A DNA stretch of 64,000 nt. Source: Blepharisma japonicum. Lineage: Eukaryota; Ciliophora; Heterotrichea; Heterotrichida; Blepharismidae. The notes beneath the pieces are model-generated. The model searched no databases and was not told the DNA's origin. It was given only the letters and a program-made list of their open reading frames with translations. The stretch spans positions 124,001-188,000 of the forward strand of contig CATKHK010000068.1 of NCBI GenBank assembly GCA_949751835.1. Reading direction: 5' to 3'. This document shows, in pieces, positions 10,843 through 56,237 of the stretch (position 1 is its first letter; the number at the start of each line of letters is the position of its first letter). A program made the position numbers and the translations under genes.

Positions 10843-11247
10843 TTATTCTCCTTCAGCCAATAATGCTTGAAATGACGGCTGCAGTGACAATTTGACCCTA
10901 TTTGCCGTTTCTATAAGTTTCCCTATTTCTCCTTGTCCTTGTATGCAGAGACACATCATTCCTAGGCTTGTTGCGATAATTCTTCCAGCTTCTGCTTCAA
11001 TAATCATTAAATTTAATTCGTCTTCTTCTGCTTGGCCTCCAGCTTCACTTGAAGGAGCATTAGCTTCATAATCACACCAAATAGTTGACGCAATTGCTCC
11101 AGAAGTTTTTACATTATCTTGATCATTTGCGGAGGCTAATAAGGCTCCTTCTTTGTTAACTAAACTGAATAATAGTTACAAAATATTATCAACTCCTTGG
11201 CTTAAAGCATTTTGAAGTGTTTGAGTAAGAGCCTTTGCGTTAAGCAT
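10843..11247 (-). CDS. LAMTOR2: LAMTOR2 (p14) roadblock-family Ragulator subunit
   Basis: This 129-residue gene appears only after removing a 15-nt intron (11165-11179). It starts MLNAKALTQTLQNALSQGVD, close to the animal LAMTOR2 start, and keeps the roadblock/LC7 order: VNKEGALLAS, GAIASTIWCDYE, a central acidic loop, IIEAEAGRIIAT, LGMMCLCIQG and a final helix ending in LLAEGE. Length matches the ~125-residue family. LAMTOR2 pairs with LAMTOR3 in Ragulator, which anchors Rag GTPases and mTORC1 at lysosomes. It ends 8 bp from the convergent CFAP97 gene, and its ATG is 23 bp from the divergent repeat protein at 11271, so the promoter is very short or shared. Confidence 0.92.
11165..11179 (-). 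other. 15-nt intron in LAMTOR2
   Basis: On the minus strand it reads gtaactattattcag. Unspliced, the frame meets TAA within it. Removing it joins DNI to FLVNKEG, restoring the second beta-strand of the roadblock domain. Confidence 0.92.
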
Positions 11248-14998: not shown

Positions 14999-15811
14999 TT
15001 ACCTACTCATTAATGGGATGCGGCTTTTCACTTTGAGTTTTTCGATTTCTTTAGCCTTATCGACATCGAGCTCACTAATAGTGATTTCGATTTCTTTGTT
15101 CATATTTTTCTTCATCTCATCAATAACAAGCTTTATGATTTCATTACTGCCCATTTCATTTGTTTCAGAAATTTGTGCTGCGTAGGTATCTTTGATAGTC
15201 TGCACTCTTTTAAGCTTTTCCAATATGTATTTTTCCATGATTTTTTCAAGGCTCTCTTCGAACTCCCTTAAATCATCCATATTTGGTATCCCTCCACAGA
15301 TATCACTTTCAAAAAATGAATCAATACTTCCTGTCCTACTTCTAATTTTATCTCTCCTCTCTTTAACCTTAGTTTCCAGCATAACATCTTGCTTTTTCAA
15401 ATTTTCTTGTATCAGAACTTTAGAATTTAGGGATTCATGGGAATATTCTTTCATAACGTTTTCTACCCCTCGAAGTTCTGTTAATGTCATTGAACGGTTT
15501 GTAAAGGTTCTGATCAGAGGATTCTTCCTTCTTTTTGGCTCATTTGTATACTGAAGAATATTTTTTACATCTTTTCGATGTAGCAAGTTCTGTAGTCTTT
15601 TTGAGTATGCTTTGTATCTCATATCTCTTATAGACTCATAATACTCGATAGCTTTCTAAATATTTCTTACAGAATAAAGAGCTACGATAGAATTCACAGA
15701 CTCCATGTCACAGCTATTGTCGATTTTCAGTTCAAGTTCTATGATCTCTTCTGCGAAATTTGGGGGCAAATTTTCTTTAACTGAAAAAATTGTTCGTTTT
15801 CTAGTTGTCAT
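14999..15811 (-). CDS. Hypothetical helical/coiled-coil protein with one intron
   Basis: The gene encodes 265 residues after removal of a 15-nt intron at 15656-15670. The first exon starts MTTRKRTIFSVKENLPPNF and the second continues KAIEYYESIRDMRYKAY. The middle (LIRTFTNRSMTLTELRGVEN) is basic and the C-terminal ~100 residues form a charged coiled coil (FEESLEKIMEKYILEKLK). I do not recognise a family. It ends with TAA 39 bp from the convergent Myb gene. Evidence for the gene is the long frame across both exons and the in-frame intron; function is unknown. Confidence 0.75.
15656..15670 (-). other. 15-nt intron
   Basis: On the minus strand it reads gtaagaaatatttag and carries an in-frame TAG at its 3' end. 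Its removal keeps the frame and joins VALYS to KAIEYYES. Confidence 0.85.
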
Positions 15812-17395: not shown

Positions 17396-20300
17396 ATGGT
17401 ATGGACACTTCTTCTTTTTATTTGCTCGTTGTCCCTATCAAATGCAGGCACTCGCAAAATAAGTGATGTTTACTTACTATTACCACAAACGCTCCATGCT
17501 CCAAACGCTAGACATGTTCATTACAAAATCCAAGCCTACGAAGGATGCTATCGCTGGAGTACGGCCAATCCAAAAGTAGTCGCCCTTACAGAAATCTCTG
17601 GTGGAATATTACCAATGAACTCAGAAGGTTCAGATACAAACCTTATGCGAGATTCTTATGGGAAAAATTGCTATCCAGAATCAGTGTTAGAACCTGTGGC
17701 TACTGTGGATCGCCCGCCAGTCACTCTTGTTACTGCAGCCGATCAATGTAAGATTTTATATAGTAAATAATGGCCAGATCCTCAAATGTGAGGTTAAGGT
17801 AGAAAAAATTGTCCGCTTAGAGATTTTGACCACAGTCAAAAGTTTCAGAGTCCAAGATCATCAGCGACTATTAGCACAAGCCTATGATGCCGAAGGCAAC
17901 GTGTTTTCCAGCTTAGAAGGGCTTCGATTCAGATGGCAGATCGTCTCAGGCTCTGACGCTATGGGAATTCCAAGGCTTAAAGACTCTTTAGTCACTTCAA
18001 GCGAAGTGAGACGCGAAATCGAGAACTCAAACTATCAAAGTGATATCATTCTTGTCGAAGGCAAGTCTACAGGCATTGCAAACATCACTCTCAAGATTGA
18101 AGAGCCTGGCTACGAAGACATCCCAGTAGCTTGGACAATAATTTCTATCTCCGAGCCATTCGCAATAATCCCTTCAACTGAAATCATCGTCCCAGTCAGA
18201 TCTTTCGTCAAATATAGAATTTTCAAGGTTTTTGAAGGGAAATTATATAAAGAAATCGACCTGCCCAGCAAAGAATTCAAATGGTCAACCCCTTTTTCTA
18301 AACTTTTAGAAGTAAAAGACTCAGGCGAGCTTTTCACTTTAGACGAAAAAGGGATTGGGCATATTGTGGTTCACGACACAAAAATAGAAAGCAACACTCT
18401 TCAATGTGAAGTCAATGTGGTAGCCCCTGACAGAATGGTTATTATTGTTGAGCCTTATAAAGCAGAAAACCCACCTAAACGAAGTTACAATGCAGAAGAG
18501 TTTTTAGAGCTATCTAACCCTAAAGAGCCTCCAAAGTCCAACTGAAATTTAATTTCAGGGCAAACTTATGCTTTAAAAATTAGGCTTTTTTGGAGGAATA
18601 AAGAAATTTTGATACCAGAAAATGCTAATTTCAAGGTCACCTTTCAGCAGCCAGAGTTTTGGGACGTAACTTCTAAATCTCAGAATGGGGATTATTTGGT
18701 GGTGATACCTAAATTAGCCCCAGACTATGTGAATAATATTTTGCCTACAAAAATCTATGGGAAGCTAGAAGTAGTTAAAAGCAGAAATTCAAAGCTTAGA
18801 GATTGGATCCCAGATCCAGCTATTACTGATACAGAAGATGTAACTATTTTGAAGCCTGTCAAAATCATTGAAGAAAGAAGACCTGTTTTGCTTCCTTATT
18901 TCGCAGTGCTTACCCAAGCTCCAGATAGAAAAGGACATCTCGCTCAAGAGTATAAGCTAAAAGTCCAAGGCGGCTCTCCTTCTTTACAATGGGAAACCAG
19001 CGATTCCTCAGTTGCCTCAGTTACTCCAAATGGCATTGTATATGCCCACAGACTAGGAGCTACCATTATATCAGTTATAGACGCCAGCAATAATAACAAT
19101 AGAGACTCCATCACAATAGAAGTTGCAATGGTCGAAAAATTAATTTTTAAAGACGACAGAAAAGAAATCATAAAAGACCACTCTGAGGTCTCTGAAATTG
19201 TAGGACTTGCCTCACAGAGCCGAAAATTCCATAACTGCTCGTCAATTTACTTAGATTGGGAAGTCAGAAAAGGCCAAGATATTGTAAAAGTACTTGAAAA
19301 AGGCACAGTTACAGAAAATAAAAGATCTGATGGTGTTTGTGAAATAAGAGGACTAGGGGGGGCAAATGAAGGCCAAGCGCTATTAAGCGTCAAATTGATA
19401 CACCAAGCGACTGAAATCAGCTCAAAACAGCCAGAAATAAGGCTTAGCTCAGAAGAAGGGAGAATTGGAGTTTTCCTTCCTTTGTCATTAGGAGTTGAAG
19501 AAAAAGTGGAGGTTTCTGGGAATAATATTACAAGGACGTTTATTTATGAGAAAAATGCAATTGTGCTGACACCTGGGTCAAGTGCGGCTATTCCACTTGT
19601 AGGAGGTCCTTTGTCATGGGACGATTTCCCACAATATTTCCATGAGCAAGCTACTGATGAGCAGCGATATTTAAATATCCAAATCCAAAGCAAAAAGCTA
19701 CCTAGAGATAGAAGAACACTATATGTGGCCTGCCCAGCAGGAGTAAAAAACAAAGATTTCTCAGTCCAAATTTCAGTTTACAATGAAAAATTTGAAGAAC
19801 TAAGAGCTCCAGGTCTCTCAACACTAAACTTAGCAGTAGGGTGTTATTTGCCGAGCACCCTGACCCTAAATTGGCTTAATGACAAAGATTACCTTAACGA
19901 CATAAAATGGAAAGCTCTGCCTACATACTACGACAGATTCAATAGAAAACTCCCTTCAGCCTTTTCTGAAGGCTACTGGGTGATCCTTCACAATCAAGAA
20001 CTTAAAGTTAACCTGACTCTCTGGGACAATAAATCCCGCTTGTTCTACAACTTCTCAAGCTCTCATTTAGAATGAAGTTCTGATAAGCCAGAACTAATTT
20101 CTTACCTTAACTATGAAAACCCTATCCACCAAAAAGCTACACTAATTGGTATTGATGAAGGCCCAGTCACTTTAGAAGCTAGAATCAATAAACTTCAAGA
20201 CGGGACTGTTCTTTATCCATCAGTCTCAGCTAATCTACACAATGAAGTTGTTAAAAACGTAGAAATTTCGCCAAATTCGTACTCTTTGTACCTCCACAAG

Positions 20301-25498: not shown

Positions 25499-26596
25499 TT
25501 ACATTATCTTAGGCTCAACACTAATCCTTTCGTTTATATGAGATAAATTGCTTTGAATTTCAATTTCAGAGTCAGCTTTTCCATGCATAGGCTTTAGCTT
25601 ATATGCTTCATGGCTTGGAACAATATTTATATAAAACATATCATCAACTTCAGGCCCTGTATAGTTAAAATGAGGTGGTGTATTAGTGTTGCATAGCGAA
25701 GCTACTACATTTGTAAAACAAGACTCTCGATATGGATTTTTGTATGGAACTTTTCATGTATTTTTAAGCTGCTCACTTGACGTTTGGTTTGTAAATAACA
25801 AATACATATGAAATCCACAGAGCCCAAGCAAAAATCACATTTCCTACATACCAAATACTAAAAAGCTGTACGCTGCTAGAAAAGTTGAAACAGCCCCATC
25901 ACTGAGTGCTTCTGAAATAGCTTGGCTTTGATCAGATTTTCCATCATCATCTTTTATCAATAATATTAAATGCACAATCGATCCTACAAAATTGATTGCT
26001 ACAAGAATAGAAGTACTTGTCAAAAAAATTACGAAATATTTATAATTCCTTTTACCTACACAGTTTCCTATCCAAGGGCAATGATGATCAAATTTTTCTA
26101 CACAAACATTGCATTCAGAGCAATGTGAACATCTTGGCGGCCTCACTATCATGCACGTTTGACAATATTTTAGCTTCATCAAATTACTTCCATGTGGAAC
26201 TTGTGCGAATTTATGCTCAATTGGTGAAAATACAGCTTTATTTGTAGCGATATGATAAGGAATCGTATAAGTTCTTGCAGGTCCTTTGGAAAATGGAGGC
26301 TCTTGGCGAGGCAAAAATCCAGGATCAGTTGTAGATGTGATAAACATATAAGAAATGCTTATAAGCTGTAAAAAAAGCGATAAAGGTAGAAAAAATGATA
26401 ATCCTTCATACTCTAAAAGCTTTACACATGTAGTAGTTAAAAATAAAGTTGCAGGGACATTAATTAATACAAAAGAAATTCACGCTCTTCAATAATCAGG
26501 CCTACCTTAAAATCACCCCATAATTATCCTTCCTTTGCAAAAGAATTTATTATCCCCTGGTCATTGATGATAAGCTTTTCTCTGTGTTTTCTTCAT
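25499..26596 (-). CDS. DHHC-type protein S-acyltransferase
   Basis: The gene encodes 355 residues after removing two 15-nt introns (26502-26516 and 25844-25858) and reading several TGA codons as Trp. It has the order expected of plant/protist DHHC enzymes: [19 protein letters not shown], two membrane helices, TTDPGFLPR, then the cysteine-rich domain [17 protein letters not shown]...[14 protein letters not shown], two more helices, and [10 protein letters not shown] (the TTxE-like motif) followed by NPY. The DHHC core here is DHHC itself, with the catalytic Cys. It palmitoylates membrane-protein cysteines; the location is probably Golgi or plasma membrane. The ATG lies 44 bp downstream of the RPB2 stop on the same strand. 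Confidence 0.94.
25844..25858 (-). other. 15-nt intron (DHHC gene, intron 2)
   Basis: On the minus strand it reads gtatttggtatgtag and ends with an in-frame TAG. Splicing joins YSFL to [12 protein letters not shown] within the fourth membrane helix. Confidence 0.92.
26502..26516 (-). other. 15-nt intron (DHHC gene, intron 1)
   Basis: On the minus strand it reads gtgattttaaggtag, with a GTG 5' end unlike the usual GTA. Splicing restores the family motif GRIIMGPDYWRAW exactly across the junction. Confidence 0.93.
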
Positions 26597-31678: not shown

Positions 31679-33643
31679 TTACACTAAATGTTCTAAGCAC
31701 TTTCTTCTGTTTTCATTGTCTTCAAAAATAGCACATACCAGATGCTTCACCTCATTTATAGAGAATTTTCCTTTAAATCTGCTTTGCTCATGAAAAACTA
31801 CAATAGTTGCGAGATCTGTATCAAGTAAATCCAACAAAAGAGCCAGTCTTTCCCACTGTTGTGAGAATTGAACTGGTGATTCCCCTAAAAATACATCTTT
31901 TAATTCGAATACCTTTCATAGCAGCTGCTTTAAAGGTGGTGTATCTTCCATCACAATATCTTCTAATTTCATAGCCAACGGCACCAAATATCCTATCAGT
32001 ACATCTACCATATTCCCGGTGCTTTTAAAATAATCACGCTTACTGAGCACTTCTCTTCACACTCCACAGCACTCATGTATCACTCCAATCGCAGAATTTA
32101 AAATCCTTTCCATTTCTGAATAATTCGCCTCAATTTTATGAAATTGCAGTTTTCTCACAAAATTCAGCATTTTTTCTCTATAAAAGTCTTTCATTTGAAA
32201 AAAGACTTGATTTGCTTCAGATTGGAAAATAGGGATAAGGTCAGCTAAATAAATGGCATGCTGGAGGTTAGGAGGCAAATGATGAGAATAATGAGCTGGA
32301 ATTAGTATCAAATGATGGATTAGATAGAGACAGTTATTGTAAAATAAACAAGTTGGTAGAAGCTGGGTGGATTTTGAAGCAATTGTGAAGTGTTTTAAAG
32401 CTTTGTATAGCATAAAGCATTCTCGAGCTAGTCTGAGGGATTTTAATAAGTCTGCTTCAGGGAGTATTAGAGAATCGTCTAAAATTTTGTAAATTATTTC
32501 TACGATTTTTTTTGTACTTTCAGAAATATGCATTGTAGGGAGCTTGTAAAAATGGGTATCAGCTTTCTTTTTGTCTGAAGTTATCATGATGGAGCTAATA
32601 GTTCCTCTCTCAGTTGTGTCAGAAACTTCTAAGATTCTTATATCTTCAATTAATATAAGCTCTCTTACTTTACCCATAACTTGGGTTTGTGTGTATTTTA
32701 CCTTTATGGCTTTTCAGCTCAGCACAATATTTGATAATTCTTTATATGATTTATCAACTATTTGATGATCTGAAATTGTGGCTTCAAAATCTTTGATTAT
32801 TTCATGTATTTCTTGGTAGCTTTGGCTAGGATCATCAAGCTCTTGGATAGTTTCCTCTATTTTTGGCTTTAAAAGTCCTATTATGTCAATGAATTTCAAT
32901 GCGTCAATTGAAAATTCATTTATTTTCAAATTTTCACACAAAAAAAGTAAAAACTCTTTTAGGTTGTTTAGGAGCAAAAATAAAGGACTTATTTTGCTTG
33001 ATTCTTTGCTAAACAGCTTTACTCCATTATTACCAATATTTTCAGCAATTAAATGATCTTGCCTCTTGCATAACTCGATTCCTCAGTTAATTAGAAAGCT
33101 CATTTTTTCTTCAATATATCCTAACTCTGTCAAGTTTTGAATAATTTCTTCAATTCTTATGCATTTTTCACCTTTATTAAACTGTGAAAACACAGTTATA
33201 GAGTCTTTCTGGTATTTAATTAGCTCAGCTCATACATCTTCTACAGCTGCTTTTAACCGCCCTTGCCAATTTATTATTTTTTCTGCTATTCTTTGCATAA
33301 GCTCAGAATCCGGATCTCTAACACACTTAATTTTTTCTTTAGCATTATTAAAGATCACAATAGCATCAGAAATCGATCCTTTAAGCACTGTAGGAAAAGT
33401 CTCAATAGCAGCGTGAATATTTGCTAGAATTTTGCATAAATTCAAATCTTTTCATGATTTAAAATCGTCACCCAAATTTAATTCAAGCATTTTCAATTCA
33501 ATCTCAGCGATTTGGTTCTCAATTTCATTTATACTTGTCTCGCTCTGCAAAAACGCCGGCTTTCTCGGGTCTGTAATTTCTATCAAATTTTGTTTTTGCA
33601 GATCTACGTCTATTATGAGTTTGTTCAATTCGGCGGGATCCAT
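31679..33643 (-). CDS. ZW10: ZW10 / Dsl1-type tethering and kinetochore protein
   Basis: This 654-residue gene is broken into pieces under the standard code but continuous when about six TGA codons are read as Trp. The N-terminal ~200 residues are helical (MDPAELNKLIIDVDLQKQN; INEIENQIAEIELKMLEL). The C-terminal half matches ZW10: TCLFYNNCLYLIHHLILIPA, HAIYLADLIPIFQSEANQVF, GVWREVLSKRDYFKSTGNMV and KFSINEVKHLVCAIFEDNEN. In the family it acts in the NRZ/Dsl1 complex tethering Golgi-to-ER vesicles, and in the RZZ kinetochore complex in animals; the vesicle role is the more likely shared one. Ends at TAA. Confidence 0.88.
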
Positions 33644-33678
33644 TTTGATAATAAACTTACCCTAATTAATTACACTTA

Positions 33679-34420
33679 CTACAATGAAAGTGACTCCCCA
33701 TTCCTCAGCGCTGCCAAATCTTGCACTTTTTTATCTTTATCACTCTCAGTTACTGCATACAAATTACAAACAATATACGGGAGCCTCTCATGAACAATAG
33801 CTTGTAGCGCATTTTGGATATTATAATTCTTAATATGCAGAATTTTGCAAGCATCTTGTTCATTAAAAGGTATAAGAGATTTAAGATACGAGCGCTCCCA
33901 AAGCTGTCCAGCCTGACGTAAATAATCATCAACTGCAGTGACTGGGAGTCTATGACAGTCCCAAACTTTTTGGCACTTTGAGCTTGGAATTGATATTTGT
34001 CCAAACGCAGGGAGGGATGACTGAAATTGAGTTCCTATCCTTGTAATTGTCCCTGATTCCGGGTCTTCCTCTTCTTCTTCGCTGCTAGGGTTCATAAAAT
34101 CTGTTATTTGGCGGAGCTGGGGGACTGGGTCAATATACTCTCGCTTGGGAAGTGCAAATTGTTCTTTTTGCTCCTTTAGGACCTGAAGAGCTTCATTGAG
34201 TTTTTCTTTGGTCCAGTTCTCTGCTTTGGCTTTGTCTCGTAACTTAATCTCTTTTTGACATGGTGGACAAAACCATGTCTCTTCGTCAACATCTCTTTGG
34301 ATACCTAAGCACTGGTTAGCGTACGTTAAAGTGGTAGGATGAAGGACAGTGGTCGCAGCAGATGAGGTCGCCACGTTTCCCACAAATCTTACAAGTGTCA
34401 TCATTTTTGACTTCTGCCAT
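33679..34420 (-). CDS. PHD-finger protein (needs a 13-nt intron)
   Basis: The start ATG 34420 opens [20 protein letters not shown], but the frame hits TAA after [11 protein letters not shown] second frame continues with [18 protein letters not shown]. Removing the 13 nt at 34312-34324 joins them in frame to give 242 residues and a perfect PHD finger: C10, C13, C22, C25, H30, C33, C47, C50, with the required C-x4-H-x2-C spacing. After the finger come a charged helix, an acidic stretch and a C-terminal region ([20 protein letters not shown]) that recalls an ELM2/SANT-like co-repressor motif. A nuclear histone-reader role is inferred. Stop is TAG; the next gene, ZW10, starts 35 bp downstream. 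Confidence 0.85.
34312..34324 (-). other. Candidate 13-nt intron in the PHD gene
   Basis: On the minus strand it reads gtacgctaaccag, with GT and AG ends and an internal TAA in frame. Its exact removal restores H-x2-C of the PHD finger and an integral codon count; a simple +1 shift at the same place would put four extra residues between H and C. Confidence 0.7.
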
Positions 34421-34684
34421 ATTTTGTATATGTGTGACATTCTCTATCATTAATTTAAATCTCAGAAAACCAAGCAATTAATAAACCTATAATAAAAAAA
34501 TTGACGGTGAATTTTAGCTGATAATGGTATAAATAATAAAAAAAAGAGCATTTTTCTTATTTTTATAGAAAATTTACATTTAATTGTCATTAGGACGCTC
34601 TATTAAAGCGTAGAGGATATTACTGATTATTATTTTTTCATTAAAAATTCTTTTCCTGATTCAATTTTCCTGGAAGTTATTTAA

Positions 34685-36697
34685 ATGGAAGTCTACGAGG
34701 TCGTCAAAAGTATCGGAAGTGGGAACTTTGGCCAAGTTTACCTAGTCAGACACAAATACGAAGGTCGAAACTATGTTGTCAAGAAGATAAAGACTAGGGA
34801 TATGAACGACAAAGATAGAGAAAACACAGAGCAAGAGGTCAGGCTTCTCCAAAAGCTGAGACATGCAAACATTGTCGCTTATAAGGACTCATATATAGAT
34901 AGAGAACAGTATCTATGCATTGTAATGGTTTACTGCGAAGGTGGGGATATTTATTTGAGAATAAAAGATGCCAAAGGGAAGAAATTCAGTGAAGCTCAAA
35001 TTTTAGAATGGATCGCCCAGATTCTTTTAGCGTTATTATACCTACATGAGAGGAAAATACTTCACAGGGACCTTAAAACTCAAAATATCTTTATAAAGAA
35101 TGGGAAAATAAGGCTAGGAGATTTTGGGATCGCAAAAGTCCTTGATGGCACCAAAGATTTTGCGAATACTTGTATAGGAACTCCTTATTATATGTCTCCG
35201 GAGCTGTTCAAAAATAAGCCTTATTCATATAAAAGTGACGTCTGGGCTTTTGGGTGTGTTATTTATGAGATGATGAACTTAAGGCATGCATTCGACGCAC
35301 AAAGCTTGAATGGGCTTGCGATGAAAATTTTAAAAGGAAGCTACCCGCCTACCTCACCATTTTACTCTAAAGGCCTCCGTGATATAGTCACCAAAATGCT
35401 TTCAGTCAATCCAAGCCAAAGGCCTACACTTATAGACTTATTAAACATGCCACTAATAAGACGTCATGTCGTCATTTATTTGCGTGACTGTTTAACTCCA
35501 ACCACAGAGCCTAAAGACCTCGATGATATCAATGTAGATTCCCTCAAAGACCAAGCTGAAAGATATGGGTTAATGCCGCTTATAAACGGAGAGTCCAAAA
35601 TGCCTCAGCCAATCCAAAGGAGTGAGCAACAAATTGAAGCTAAACTAAAAAAAGAAGAAGAAGAAAAACAAGAAATGGAAGCTTTATTGACAAAATTAAC
35701 CACCCAGAAAAAAGAAATAAAATCAAAATTAAAACAAAATAGCAGCAAAACGAAACAACAGGAGTCAGAAAAAGCAAATGAGCTTGAAAAGCAACAAAAA
35801 CAAAAGCAAGTGGATGCAGAAAAACGAAGAGATGCACAATTGCAAGAAAAAAGAAAAAAAGCTCAAGCTTATAGCAAAAGATTAGATGAAAATAATAAAT
35901 CTGAAGAGGACAAGAAACAAGAAGAGTCCACAACTGCAAGAGATAGAGTTATTGCAGAAAAAGAAAAAAGGAGAAAAGAAGAAGAGGACAGAAAAATTGC
36001 GGAGCTTATGCAGATACACCAGCAGAATCAACATAATAGGCAGGTTGCAGTTGAAAAGCACCAGGCACAGTTTAGGACTTCTTCTATATTACAGTCTGCT
36101 CTTACTTATGAAAAAGTCGCCCCAAATCTTACAGAAGAAGAGCTAAAAGAAGTAGCGGAGTATGAAGAAGGGTCAACTGAAGAACAAACTGATGAAGAAG
36201 AGCTTAAAAAGATTGAAGAACTGAGGCTTATTAATCAGCAAGTTAATGATATGAAAGAAAGAATTCAAGTTAAGACTATAAGGATAGAAGAAATGAGAGA
36301 AAGTTTGAGATTTTCGACGTCTGGGATGTCAGGGTTTGAGCCTGAGCCTCCTGAAGAGATTGAAGAAGGCAATGAAGAAAATGTTACAGAAGTAAATTAT
36401 GGAAACTTAGAAGCTGTAGAAGAAGTGGAAGAGGAAGAGGCAAAAGAAGAGCTCCCATCATGGCATACAAAGCTTAGAGAAAGGCTAAAGCTTCTACAAC
36501 AGTAATTTCTATTTAGTAAATGCGAAGCTGGAATTGGCCACCAACTCTATGAAAGAAGCATAAATCTTCTTAAAGAAATGTCCGGGCATAATAACAATGA
36601 TATAAGGATCGCTTTAATTGAATTGCTAGGCGGCCAAAATATTGGATATTGGGTCATTCTTGACCAGATAATATACATTGAAAGCTCTTTAACCTAA
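34685..36697 (+). CDS. NIMA-related kinase (NEK)
   Basis: The gene encodes 665 residues after removal of a 15-nt intron (36501-36515). The kinase domain (residues ~4-260) is complete: GSGNFGQVYLV, catalytic Lys in YVVKKIK, HRDLKTQNIFI, DFGIAKVL, TCIGTPYYMSPE and DVWAFGCVIYEM. It resembles the NEK1/NEK-family kinases linked to cilia and cell cycle; ciliates have many NEKs. A long basic coiled coil (~310-560) and an acidic region follow. The spliced second exon adds about 60 residues (AGIGHQLYERSINLLKEM...) that look folded and similar to NEK1-type C-terminal ends. No TGA is used. Confidence 0.93.
36501..36515 (+). other. 15-nt intron in the NEK gene
   Basis: It reads gtaatttctatttag. Retained, it gives an in-frame TAA; removed, the frame continues for about 60 conserved-looking codons to TAA at 36695-36697. 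Confidence 0.9.
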
Positions 36698-36719: not shown

Positions 36720-37271
36720 ATGAAGCGCACCACTGTTTATGACAGAAATTTAAAAGCCAAGCGCGAGGTCTCTGTTAGCTCTTTTCACTTTCTTTTCTCG
36801 GAAATAGTCCAATACTGCTTAGCAAAAGCAAATAGTGATGCCCAAGAACTAGAGCGACAATTAGAAGAGCTCGGCCAGCCCCTTGGAGCAAAATTTTTAG
36901 AGTTGGTATGCTTTAGGGACAGAAATTCTAAAAAAGATATAAATGTGATAGAGTGCTTAAGATTTATCCATGGGCCTCTCTGGAAAACACTTTTTAATAA
37001 AAATGCTGATGAGCTTGAACAAAACACAGAAGAGCATGACACGTTTATGATAAGCGAAAAAGAGCCGAGCCTCTGTAACCAATTCGCTTGTCTACCAAAA
37101 GGTGACGACTATTTGAACTGTGGAGCATTTGTTGCTGGAATTATTGAAGGAATTTTAGCCTCTGCCAATTTCCCTGCAAAAGTTTCAGCTATTTTTAAAA
37201 ATGATGAGGAGTCAAGGAAAACTGTTTTTCTAGTGAAATTTAATAGTGATACAATAGAAAGGGATTATTAA
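36720..37271 (+). CDS. TRAPPC5: TRAPP complex subunit TRAPPC5 (Trs31)
   Basis: A full-length 183-residue Bet3-family subunit starts 22 bp after the NEK stop. It has VSVSSFHFLFSEIVQYCLAK, ELERQLEELGQPLGAKFLEL, LRFIHGPLWKTLFNKNADEL, and DDYLNCGAFVAGIIEGIL, the conserved order of Trs31/TRAPPC5. It is a core subunit of all TRAPP complexes, which activate Rab1 (TRAPPII/III also Rab11) in ER-Golgi traffic. No intron or TGA. Its stop is only 7 bp from the convergent TMEM43 stop, so the two transcripts must overlap. Confidence 0.95.
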   Translation: MKRTTVYDRNLKAKREVSVSSFHFLFSEIVQYCLAKANSDAQELERQLEELGQPLGAKFLELVCFRDRNSKKDINVIECLRFIHGPLWKTLFNKNADELEQNTEEHDTFMISEKEPSLCNQFACLPKGDDYLNCGAFVAGIIEGILASANFPAKVSAIFKNDEESRKTVFLVKFNSDTIERDY

Positions 37272-37278
37272 TTACAAA

Positions 37279-38325
37279 TTAAGTGGCAAGAATGAATCCT
37301 ATAAGTAATAATAGTGTTGAAAAAATGCGAATAATGTATTGTTTTGTTCGACGGTTGCTTAGCTTTCTTTCTAGGAGTTTATCAGCAGAAATAATGCCAC
37401 TTTCAACAGTTAAAAGTTTCCCTTCATATCTAGATAGTGTATCTCCATCTTGGGCACCCAAAATACTAACAGCAGTGCCTATATGTAAAACTGAATATTT
37501 AATCCTATAATCTCCTATTTCAGGCTTGTATTCTCCTTCAAGAGCATCTTGTATAGTAAGATAATAATAAGTTTCGTCATAATAGATAAAGTATTTATTC
37601 AAAGAATCATATATTGGGGTTGGGTGGACCAATCTCAGTTTTTCTCTTATAGGAATTTTTTTTAAAATTTCTCTTGACATTCTATAAGGCCCTATAAAGG
37701 CTTCAGGCTGGCATGAAAAAGTAGCATTTTGCAGTTTTGGGTCCCAGTCTGGGTTGTGGTGGTCTTCATTAGAATTGAAATGGGAAGAATTTATCTGCGA
37801 TCTTGCCCAGACTTGTTTATAATCAATTGCTTTTAGGCCATCTTTTATTGTTTCTTCTTGCCATTGATACATTTCTACTTGCCTTTTAAGCAACAGCGCT
37901 TCAGAAACTGTTACTATAGGCAGAAAAGGGTCTTGGAGATAAAAAGGCATGCCAACTTGTAGGTTTCCTGCGACAAATATTAATTTCCCATTATTTCCTG
38001 AGTCAATAATAGGTGGCGCATCGATAACCACATTCAGACATTTGTTAAGGAATTTTTGGGTGATTTGATAATTCCATTCAAAATATCCTCATATAGCTCC
38101 TCCGACTACAAGAATAAGGATCCCAAGCACTAATCCTACGACTGAGGCTGAATTTGAAGGTGCCTCAGGAATTGAAGGCAAATCGCTATAATTTTCTGAT
38201 CCAGATTCTTGGATCGTGTTTTCTGTAGTGATAGAACTGTCTGAGTTATTTGAAGGATAAGTGTAAAACGCACTGCAATAGCAGAGTAATAAGCAGCATA
38301 TCCAATTGACAAAGTGGAGAACCAT
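37279..38325 (-). CDS. TMEM43: TMEM43-family membrane protein
   Basis: The 348-residue frame starts MVLHFVNWICCLLLCYCSA (signal-like) and passes a TGA at 38089-38091 just after a membrane helix (VVGLVLGILILVVGGAI). It then follows the TMEM43 (DUF1625/LUMA) pattern: NNGKLIFVAGNLQVG, DPFLPIVTVSEALLLKRQVE, MYQWQEE, SSHFNSNEDHHNPDW, and IGPYRMSREILKKI. The C-terminal helix is IIRIFSTLLLLIGFILAT. Animal TMEM43 sits in the ER and inner nuclear membrane and interacts with lamins and emerin; the function in ciliates is unknown. Stop is TAA. Confidence 0.88.
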
Positions 38326-48765: not shown

Positions 48766-49794
48766 ATGGCATCAAAAAAGGTTTTCAATTTCAACAACAC
48801 CTTTTCTACTCTAAGCAATGAAGGATCAACTTTTATGGAAAGCACCCAGCAATTTTCATCAATTTTAGATGATCATGAAAGTTTTGACGAAGAAAATCAA
48901 TCTCACTCTTCATTTAGTAATACAGATCATTCAAAATCCATTTCCTATAAAAATTTTCTGTCTGGAACTTTAAGTCGAGTCAATACTTGTATAGAAAAAA
49001 AGAAAAATTGGTTAGAAGAAGAAAAACGAAAAAAATTTCTTGAAGAGGTCTCAAATCTTCAAGATAAGCCGAAAATAAACAGTTATAGCAAAAAATTATT
49101 AACTTCTAAATCTCCGATCCATAAAAGAGTTAATGATATCATGAGAAGTAAAAGAGATAAAATTAAAAACATGCAATTAGAGTTTCAGCTGAAAAAAAGA
49201 ACAGAAGAAAAACAAGCATGCACTTTTCAGCCAAAAAGTGCAAATACAACTCCTCGACGCACAGCTGAACAATTTATCCAACAAGTCGGGATTTGGCACA
49301 ACAAAAAACTTCAGAATCTAAAAAAAGACCAAACTGATAGTGAAAAAACCAAAGAACTAGAATTTACAAAAAATCCTTTAATAAATAAAAAATCACAAAT
49401 ATTAGCACAAAAGGTATTTTCTAAATAGAGATCTAAAACACCTGTTTTTGATAGGCTATATACAAACAAGAAAAATACTTCTAAATCTCCATCTCCATCA
49501 TTTACACCAAGAATATATGAGAAATCTTTGGAACTTTCTCAAAAGCTAAGCTTATCAGGTGTTTTCGAGAGGCTTTACCCTGATTCGAAATCTCAGACAT
49601 TAAAAAATTTAATACATAGTAACTCACGAACTCCTACTCATGAAAAATCAACTAAAATGCTTAGAGACAAGTCAAAAGAGAGGATGGGGCTATATAAAGT
49701 TAATACAGGAAAAGGAGCTATCCTAGAAAATTCTGTAAATGAGGTAAAGTTTCAAAGTTCCATGAGATTTCTACTGAACAGTTTAAAACAGTAA
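48766..49794 (+). CDS. Hypothetical basic protein with one intron
   Basis: Two exons joined by removal of a 15-nt intron (49414-49428) encode 337 residues, from MASKKVFNFNNTF to a TAA after LLNSLKQ. The protein is basic and Ser/Lys-rich; a short helical segment (IMRSKRDKIKNMQLEFQLK) and a conserved-looking block (CTFQPKSAN, RTAEQFIQQVGIWHNKKLQ) occur before the intron, and SPSPSFTPRIYEKS after it. The TFxPK...R-x-x-x-QFx...W pattern recurs in ciliate and other protist cytoskeletal proteins of unknown function. No membrane segment. Family not recognised. Confidence 0.78.
49414..49428 (+). other. 15-nt intron
   Basis: It reads gtattttctaaatag between codons; retained, its last three bases are an in-frame TAG. 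Removing it joins AQK to RSKTPVFDRLY with no frame change. Confidence 0.88.
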
Positions 49795-54857: not shown

Positions 54858-56237
54858 TTATATTTTATTATTGTTGTTTTCTATATCTGTCCGCTGTTTT
54901 ACATATTTTCCATCAACTCCTTCCTCTTCTTCATACTCATTTTTTGATCTTTTATAATATGATTGCATGATAGGAATTGTCCATAAAATCGAAAAAATGC
55001 ATACAGTGATCATAAAATTAAAAACAGCGTCCCAACTGTACTCTTGCAATGCTCCGATCTATATGAAATTTACAATAAATTGGCCTACACTAGCTCCGAT
55101 ACCTCCTGAGCCATCTACGATACCAGCTATCGTTGCTTTGGCTTCTTCTTTGTTAGCATTTGCTTTGGCTTGGCCTAAATCAGCTGCCACAACTGAAGAA
55201 ATAAAACATGTGAGCCCGCCTAAGGCTGCCCCGAGTAGTGGTATTAATATAAAAAAATACCACAATGTGTCAGAAGTGCCTAGTTTTAAGCAAAATAACA
55301 GTGGAATTGTAAGAACTATCACAGGAGTTGTAACTAAGATTCTATCTTTTGTTTTGTCACTGAGTCAGCCTAATAGAATAGTTCCTATTGTTCCTCCGAC
55401 GTCATAAGAACCGACCATCAGACCCATTTTCTCACCTTTTATCCCGATTTTTTTTTCTAAGAAATAAGGAAGCCACATCATTAATCCATAGTTCATCATT
55501 TTGATGCCTGAATAAGTCAATGAATAAAATATTACCCCAGGTATCATGCAAGCTTGCCTAATTGGAATTCTTCTTCGTTCAGGAATCGCTTGGATTTCTC
55601 TGGGGCTGACTCCAGTACTTGTAATCAACGCAGAATCAACTTTGTCATCCACAGTTGACCAAAATGCAACAGCCACCAATACAAGCAGAGAAACCATTAA
55701 AACTGTTACATATTCCCAGCCTACCCCTTCAGAGTACAGCCCAGCTGCTACCTGTGATCCTACAATATTTCCAACTACAGTATTTGCACTTCAAAGTCCT
55801 AATATTTTTCCACGGGAACCTTTAGAAAACCAAGTCCCCATAATAGCTACAGTGCCCGGCCATACAGCAGAAAAAAAGAATCCTAAAAGTCCGAAAAAAC
55901 AAATATAAGCTCCTGGATGAGTAACATTTAATAGTGCTAGTAAAATAATCTGCTTAGAACTTACAATCAAAAATACACCGCCAGCTGACAGCATTGATAT
56001 TGAAACAACCATAACAACAGGATATGAATCTCCTAATATCCCACTAATAAAATTTCCTGCTGCATAGCACATCAGAAAGACCATATCAAAACTTCCTAAC
56101 CAAGTAGAGGAAAATCCCAAAGTCTGATTTACTTCTGGCTTCGCCATAATTCAGCTTTCAAGCACAGCATGCCTTGACAAATTGCATAAAAAACTCAAAA
56201 TAAAGACAATAAATTGGGACTTGACAAGCCGATTCAT
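54858..56237 (-). CDS. SLC37-type sugar-phosphate/phosphate antiporter (MFS)
   Basis: The 459-residue gene appears as four fragments under the standard code but is one frame with TGA as Trp, from MNRLVKSQFIVFIL to TAA. It has about 12 membrane helices in two halves around a cytoplasmic loop. Motifs of the organophosphate:Pi antiporters include NLSRHAVLES, GSFDMVFLMCYAAGNFISG, GLLGFFFSAVWPGTVAIMGT, WFSKGSRGKILGLWSANTVV and DVGGTIGTILLGWLSDK. Family members (SLC37A1-4, bacterial GlpT/UhpT) exchange glucose-6-phosphate or glycerol-3-phosphate for phosphate, usually at the ER membrane. The exact substrate cannot be read from the sequence. Confidence 0.92.

Follow-up and report, generated by a model that had tools for sequence, protein, structure and literature searches.

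A putative 13-nt spliceosomal intron in a PHD-finger gene of Blepharisma japonicum, present in two diverged gene copies

The donor, the branch point and the acceptor of an intron must be handled by large snRNPs, and in the shortest introns this has to be done within a few bases. The closest described systems are the introns of heterotrich ciliates. In Stentor coeruleus, 8173 introns have 15 nt and 633 have 16 nt, and the branch A is mostly the 10th base of the former or the 11th of the latter (PMC9505925). In Blepharisma stoltei, with a genome of 41 Mbp, 66% AT and UGA coding for Trp, introns are predominantly 15 and 16 bp (PMC9942806). About 95% of heterotrich introns are given as 15 bp and the remainder as 16, and in Loxodes introns below 16 bp are negligible (PMC11441545). 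Outside the ciliates, mikrocytids have introns of 16-17 nt (217 of the 224 in Mikrocytos mackini are 16 bp; PMC10245619) and the Bigelowiella nucleomorph has introns of 18-21 nt (PMC10245619, PMC12316389). The mikrocytid introns are likewise minimal, spliceosomal and narrow in length, but they belong to an unrelated lineage and are longer than 13 nt; those of the nucleomorph are also very short and spliceosomal, but they are at least 5 nt longer and come from another lineage. Two of these papers take as their shortest comparison the 15 nt of Stentor or the 15-16 nt of heterotrichs (PMC12316389, PMC10245619).

Two other reports bear on how a tiny intron is to be judged. A search of human RNA-Seq down to 10 nt returned 655 canonical introns below 50 nt; its authors propose that RNA folding helps or, for non-canonical introns, that other enzymes carry out the removal (PMC5435141). 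Some of the 655 may match 13 nt in length, but they are sporadic events in a genome whose introns are long. In Arabidopsis, 103 introns annotated at 30 bp or below were tested and none was supported (PMC6161759). Also, ribosomal frameshifting at stop codons has been reported in Euplotes (PMC10235951).

Here we analyse a 13-nt candidate intron in the heterotrich Blepharisma japonicum, located in a stretch of 64,000 nt (the window). It seems to lie two bases under the heterotrichs' usual minimum of 15. Like the introns of Stentor and B. stoltei, it has GT...AG ends and an A five bases before its end; unlike them, it is 13 nt long and GC-rich, with the candidate branch A at position 8 (or 9) and a CTAAC core. 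The preliminary description of this candidate gave known heterotrich introns as 15-16 nt, with which the Stentor and B. stoltei papers agree, and placed it, if real, among the shortest introns known. This is fair against the 15-nt minimum of the heterotrich papers. Our searches of open-licence papers turned up no 13-nt spliceosomal intron; of two matches to a "13 bp intron", one was an intronic deletion in ATM and the other what its source terms a polymorphism of the DGAT2 3'-UTR. We do not claim the shortest intron ever, as the lengths of the 655 human introns bear on that question. Unlike the Arabidopsis introns, the candidate rests on a duplicate under selection; nevertheless, that precedent still counts against it.

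The candidate, its gene and a diverged duplicate

Table 1. The candidate intron, the exons on its two sides and the other predicted introns of the window
Feature	Position	Strand	Remarks
13-nt intron candidate GTACGCTAACCAG	34312..34324	minus	from sequence; identical in the duplicate
Exon 1	34325..34420	minus	32 codons; zinc ligands 1-5 of the PHD finger; ATG at 34420
Exon 2	33679..34311	minus	210 codons + stop; zinc ligands 6-8 and the rest; starts CLGIQRDV; stop ending at 33679
15-nt intron GTAACTATTATTCAG	11165..11179	minus	predicted, comparison
15-nt intron GTAAGAAATATTTAG	15656..15670	minus	predicted, comparison
16-nt intron GTAAGATTTTATATAG	17748..17763	plus	predicted, comparison
15-nt intron GTATTTGGTATGTAG	25844..25858	minus	predicted, comparison
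15-nt intron GTAATTTCTATTTAG	36502..36516	plus	predicted, comparison
15-nt intron GTATTTTCTAAATAG	49414..49428	plus	predicted, comparison
15-nt intron GTAAATTTCATATAG	55059..55073	minus	predicted, comparison

The candidate (Table 1) has the GT...AG ends of a U2-type intron, with the donor GT at 34324-34323 and the acceptor AG at 34313-34312. Inside it is an in-frame TAA at 34318-34316 (GTA CGC TAA), at which the exon-1 frame stops if the 13 bases are not removed. Their exact removal joins 32 codons to 210 codons and a stop in phase 0, and both the frame and a conserved protein with the zinc spacing C-x4-H-x2-C are restored. The length, strand, ends and internal stop that had been described were thus confirmed in the sequence, together with the statement that exact removal restores the spacing, the frame and an integral codon count. 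The spliced protein scores 34.8 bits with Pfam PHD (cut-off 24). An ELM2-like stretch in exon 2 is weak (16.8 bits, under the Pfam cut-off of 21.7), and the NCBIfam search gave nothing useful. In 84,980 prokaryote genomes there were 163 pattern matches but no relative. TGA apparently codes for Trp: 31679-33643 of the window is one frame of 654 aa with six TGA, while no ORF listed for this region by the standard code exceeds 206 aa.

When the 45.2-Mb genome was searched, a second copy of the gene was found on another contig (C29:64804-65542). It carries the identical 13-mer in the same place (C29:64900-64912), and the 13-mer occurs only twice in the genome, in the window and in this duplicate. 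Over the 116 bases of the initial match, identity between the copies is 85%, with 13/13 intron bases unchanged; on the upstream side, their DNA similarity reaches 11 nt beyond the ATG at 34420. In the proposed frame, 15 of the 32 codons of exon 1 differ between the copies, and these comprise 15 synonymous and 0 non-synonymous differences; in the other two frames, 15/15 and 13/15 differing codons are non-synonymous. Over the whole gene (242 codons), dN is about 0.10 and dS about 1.75, a rough value near saturation, with dN/dS 0.056; for exon 2, dN is 0.115 and dS 1.55. Given the synonymous-only differences in exon 1 and the low dN/dS, both exons are selected in frames that are joinable only by the removal of 1 mod 3 bases or by a frameshift. 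Also, a one-off assembly error is unlikely, since the diverged duplicate has the same 13 bases in the same place. This largely answers the worry about an assembly indel that had accompanied the first description. On the other hand, the full identity of the 13 bases is less striking when we consider the tandem duplicates of C1, because one of their three intron pairs is also fully identical (15/15); another is identical at 12/15 and the third is a length variant, 15 vs 17.

Two alternatives have to be weighed against these values. The gene might contain no intron, with an uninterrupted protein translated from an ATG at 34440 or 34404 in the frame of exon 2. No stop interrupts this frame across exon 1 in either copy (33679-34443 in the window), and such a start was chosen by a gene model in the window. 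Yet there is no sign of selection on exon 1 in it, as 15/15 differing codons change the amino acid, and five zinc ligands would be lost; we regard this start as highly improbable. It is nevertheless instructive for annotation pipelines. Because the exon-2 frame is open through exon 1, a gene finder working without RNA would place the start at 34404 or 34440 and miss the PHD finger. The second alternative is that both genes are decaying and share a frame lesion, or that an identical assembly error was made twice. One neighbour gene of the duplicate block is indeed broken, so that the block has lost genes. However, an exon 1 with silent changes only, the low dN/dS and the same 13 nt on two contigs with diverged flanks are hardly what decay or error would leave, and we consider this extremely improbable.

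The duplicate block itself (L002, C29:63329-66444) corresponds to 33613-34431 and 37265-37827 of the window, and the order of the PHD gene and the gene at 37279-38325 is kept. Between those two genes, no match to the kinase-like gene at 34685-36505 or the gene at 36720-37271 was found in the duplicate block. Of the gene at 31679-33643 only a remnant is left, in which the start MDPAN runs into a stop (L002:2250). A duplicate block with such gene loss suggests an old segmental or genome duplication. The length-variant pair of C1 consists of the 15-nt intron GTAGGCTCTATTTAG (L040:6416-6430; C1:266416-266430) and the 17-nt GTATAGGCTCCATTTAG in the tandem copy about 1.6 kb further on; the mismatch may reflect a 17-nt intron, damage to the copy or an incorrectly assigned first exon.

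Zinc-ligand spacing and other ways of joining the exons

The frames of the two exons leave several joins open, and it is the spacing of the zinc ligands that separates them. In 15 other PHD loci, the genome has 16 matches to the PHD motif, all of them H-x2-C. They were counted with a regular expression allowing 1 to 9 residues at H-x-C, over fetched loci rather than a full PHD census, and one of them (L017, plus strand) differs from the search hit of its locus. When CHD4 (ccdtcpssyhihcl) is aligned to the spliced protein, there is no gap at the junction. Against both comparisons the spacing argument of the preliminary description holds.

We enumerated the GT/GC...AG excisions of 4-119 nt whose donor falls after the ATG and before the first stop and that leave a long open frame. 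There are 36 in the window copy and 35 in the duplicate, and in both copies all eight zinc ligands are kept only by the 13-nt one. In all the others, including a 16-nt GC...AG excision and those of at least 40 nt, zinc ligands are lost or exon 1 is out of frame. By a hand count, seven 13-nt registers could restore H-x2-C. In motif score, 79 of 527,948 13-mers are at least as intron-like as the candidate, which comes to about 0.001 over the seven registers, so the fit of the 13-mer is beyond chance.

Other segments could be removed in place of the 13 nt. One is the 16-nt GC...AG GCTAACCAGTGCTTAG, which is shifted by four bases in the direction of transcription; another also has 16 nt, with AA...AG ends; and the third would be an internal eliminated sequence (IES) of 10 nt, bounded by TA and left in the assembly. 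The frame is restored by each of the three, introns of 16 nt are usual in this genome, and the GC...AG option is present in both copies. However, removing the GC...AG segment deletes the sixth zinc ligand (product HFNVRIQRDV), and this segment has no A at n-5. The AA...AG segment lacks a GT donor and gives H-x1-C, although its product still scores 30.4 bits with Pfam PHD (76-aa piece), above the cut-off. The TA-bounded version gives H-x3-C when read by hand. IESs are mostly TA-bounded, and for an IES both 13 nt and 10 nt are far below the Blepharisma range, which is reported to begin at about 65 bp (PMC9942856). A different excision of this kind is therefore quite unlikely.

A programmed +1 ribosomal frameshift at CGC-UAA-C would need no excision; the 13 nt would stay in the mRNA and be translated as VRNQ. 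In both copies the exon-1 frame runs into the TAA of the 13-mer and the +1 frame continues without a stop, much as in Euplotes, and a 21-nt run from TTTAAC to TG is identical between the copies. The product also passes the Pfam PHD cut-off, with 29.7 bits (81-aa piece) against 24, but this is 5 bits less than the spliced protein. Without splicing, the codons of His and Cys are 19 nt apart, so that a +1 shift leaves six residues between them. The resulting H-x6-C, with four extra residues in the zinc site, stands against the H-x2-C of the other PHD motifs found, and the protein would hardly be a sound one; that a +1 shift would not restore the spacing had been pointed out at the outset. Frameshift sites of the Euplotes type have AAA before the stop, a context that is absent here. 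A frameshift also leaves the GT, the AG and the A at intron spacing unexplained, and we judge it very unlikely. On the strength of the sequence, the 13 nt are very likely a genuine spliceosomal intron conserved in two copies. As splicing is read from the DNA here, the cautious "possible" of the preliminary description is still the right word.

Comparison with other introns of the genome

In 264 kb we ran a length-neutral gene model, in which any GT...AG of 8-40 nt is allowed at equal cost. At the mildest setting it predicts 60 introns, 29 of 15 nt and 7 of 16 nt, and none of the 60 has 13 nt. With six decoy end pairs at the same setting there are 38-42 calls each, with a maximum of 3 at 15 or 16 nt; the decoy maximum at any one length is 5 (13 nt in CT...AC and 24 nt in GT...GA). 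From this distribution, the peak at 15 nt is real and the calls of scattered length are for the most part noise. The preliminary description counted seven other introns of 15-16 nt in the window, and the mildest setting finds the same, six of 15 nt and one of 16 nt (Table 1), while a stricter setting finds 5/7 of them. A second model, with motif scores and 15 further loci included, made no 13-nt calls among 55, 41 and 34 calls at three settings. The candidate at 34312-34324 is called by neither model; the first started the gene at the ATG at 34404, in the exon-2 frame. DNA searches with two window genes carrying 15-nt introns matched only the window itself.

For comparison of the motifs, we pooled 39 predicted 15-nt introns, consisting of the 29 called at 15 nt and 10 trimmed from longer calls whose first 15 nt form a GT...AG. 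An A at n-5 is found in 38/39 of them (29/29 called, 9/10 trimmed), and in the 13-mer likewise, so that its candidate branch-point A has the genome's usual spacing, that of the 15-nt pattern. Among the predicted 16-nt introns, the A is at n-5 in 2/7 and at n-6 in 4/7. In the 13-mer, the branch candidates are A8 (34317, n-5) and A9 (34316, the bulge of CTAAC). On the other hand, both copies fall short of the length of the heterotrich 15-16-nt class, and the 13-mer is not A+T-rich as that class is: its GC content is 7/13, while the 39 introns average 24% with a maximum of 47%. Its motif score is low, with 2/39 of the pooled introns scoring as low or lower. The stop inside it says little, since TAA or TAG occurs in some frame in 45/46 introns; this is often only the terminal TAG, and another one is present in 37/46.

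CTAAC is found in 0/46 of the other predicted introns. The motif GTANNCTAACNAG occurs at ten places in the genome, two of which are the PHD gene copies; of the eight others, the two that were read are not convincing as introns. The motif is rarer than its reverse (10 vs 79 places), but no inference can be drawn from this, as CTAAC and GTA are rare in the genome anyway.

Some of the other short calls deserve a remark. A 10-nt and a 12-nt call in C1 (47462-47471 and 120267-120278 of L024-L043 joined) lie near gene ends, are unsupported and were set aside. Also, at its mildest setting the motif-scoring model crosses the stop of the PHD gene through an 18-nt GTAAGTGTAATTAATTAG (33662-33679 of the window). 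This call is probably noise, judging from the duplicate, at whose stop no such GT...AG is evident.

Spliceosomal RNAs and a possible route of splicing

Of the snRNAs of a U2-type spliceosome, U1, U2 and U6 are present in the genome, all with hits over the cut-offs. There are three U2 genes over the cut-off, with GUGUAGUA, and a U1 with ACUUACCUGG. An ordinary U1/U2/U6 spliceosome would then remove the 13 nt from the mRNA. With A8 as the branch, there would be two bases fewer between donor and branch than in the 15-nt introns, while the distance from branch to acceptor would be kept, giving a lariat loop of 8 and, as in Stentor, a tail of five bases. With A9, the canonical bulge, one base would be lost on each side, and the loop and the tail would be 9 and 4. 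The CTAAC core would pair with GUAGUA of U2 around the bulged A better than the usual branch sites here, and this better pairing may offset the lost spacing.

It seems likely that the 13-nt intron is spliced via such an 8- or 9-nt lariat loop, helped by the full CTAAC-U2 pairing. Having survived unchanged in both copies at a dS of about 1.7, it would be functional and under selection, and the constitutive spliceosomal floor would be lower than the 15 nt of the heterotrich papers. If this is true, a 13-nt intron in two copies moves the lower limit of intron length; it would suggest where the slack lies and provide a natural test of the minimum lariat size.

A second U1-like gene was observed at L050:1501-1661 (C17:419159-419319), with 61.8 bits under the Rfam cut-off of 69.5. 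Its 5' end has TCAATTACAATGG in place of TCACTTACCTGG. This TCAATTACAATGG would pair with GTAATT, the commonest donor (8/46), and the mean number of pairs out of six is 4.67, compared with 4.43 for the usual U1. The gene may be a variant U1, and it could equally be a pseudogene.
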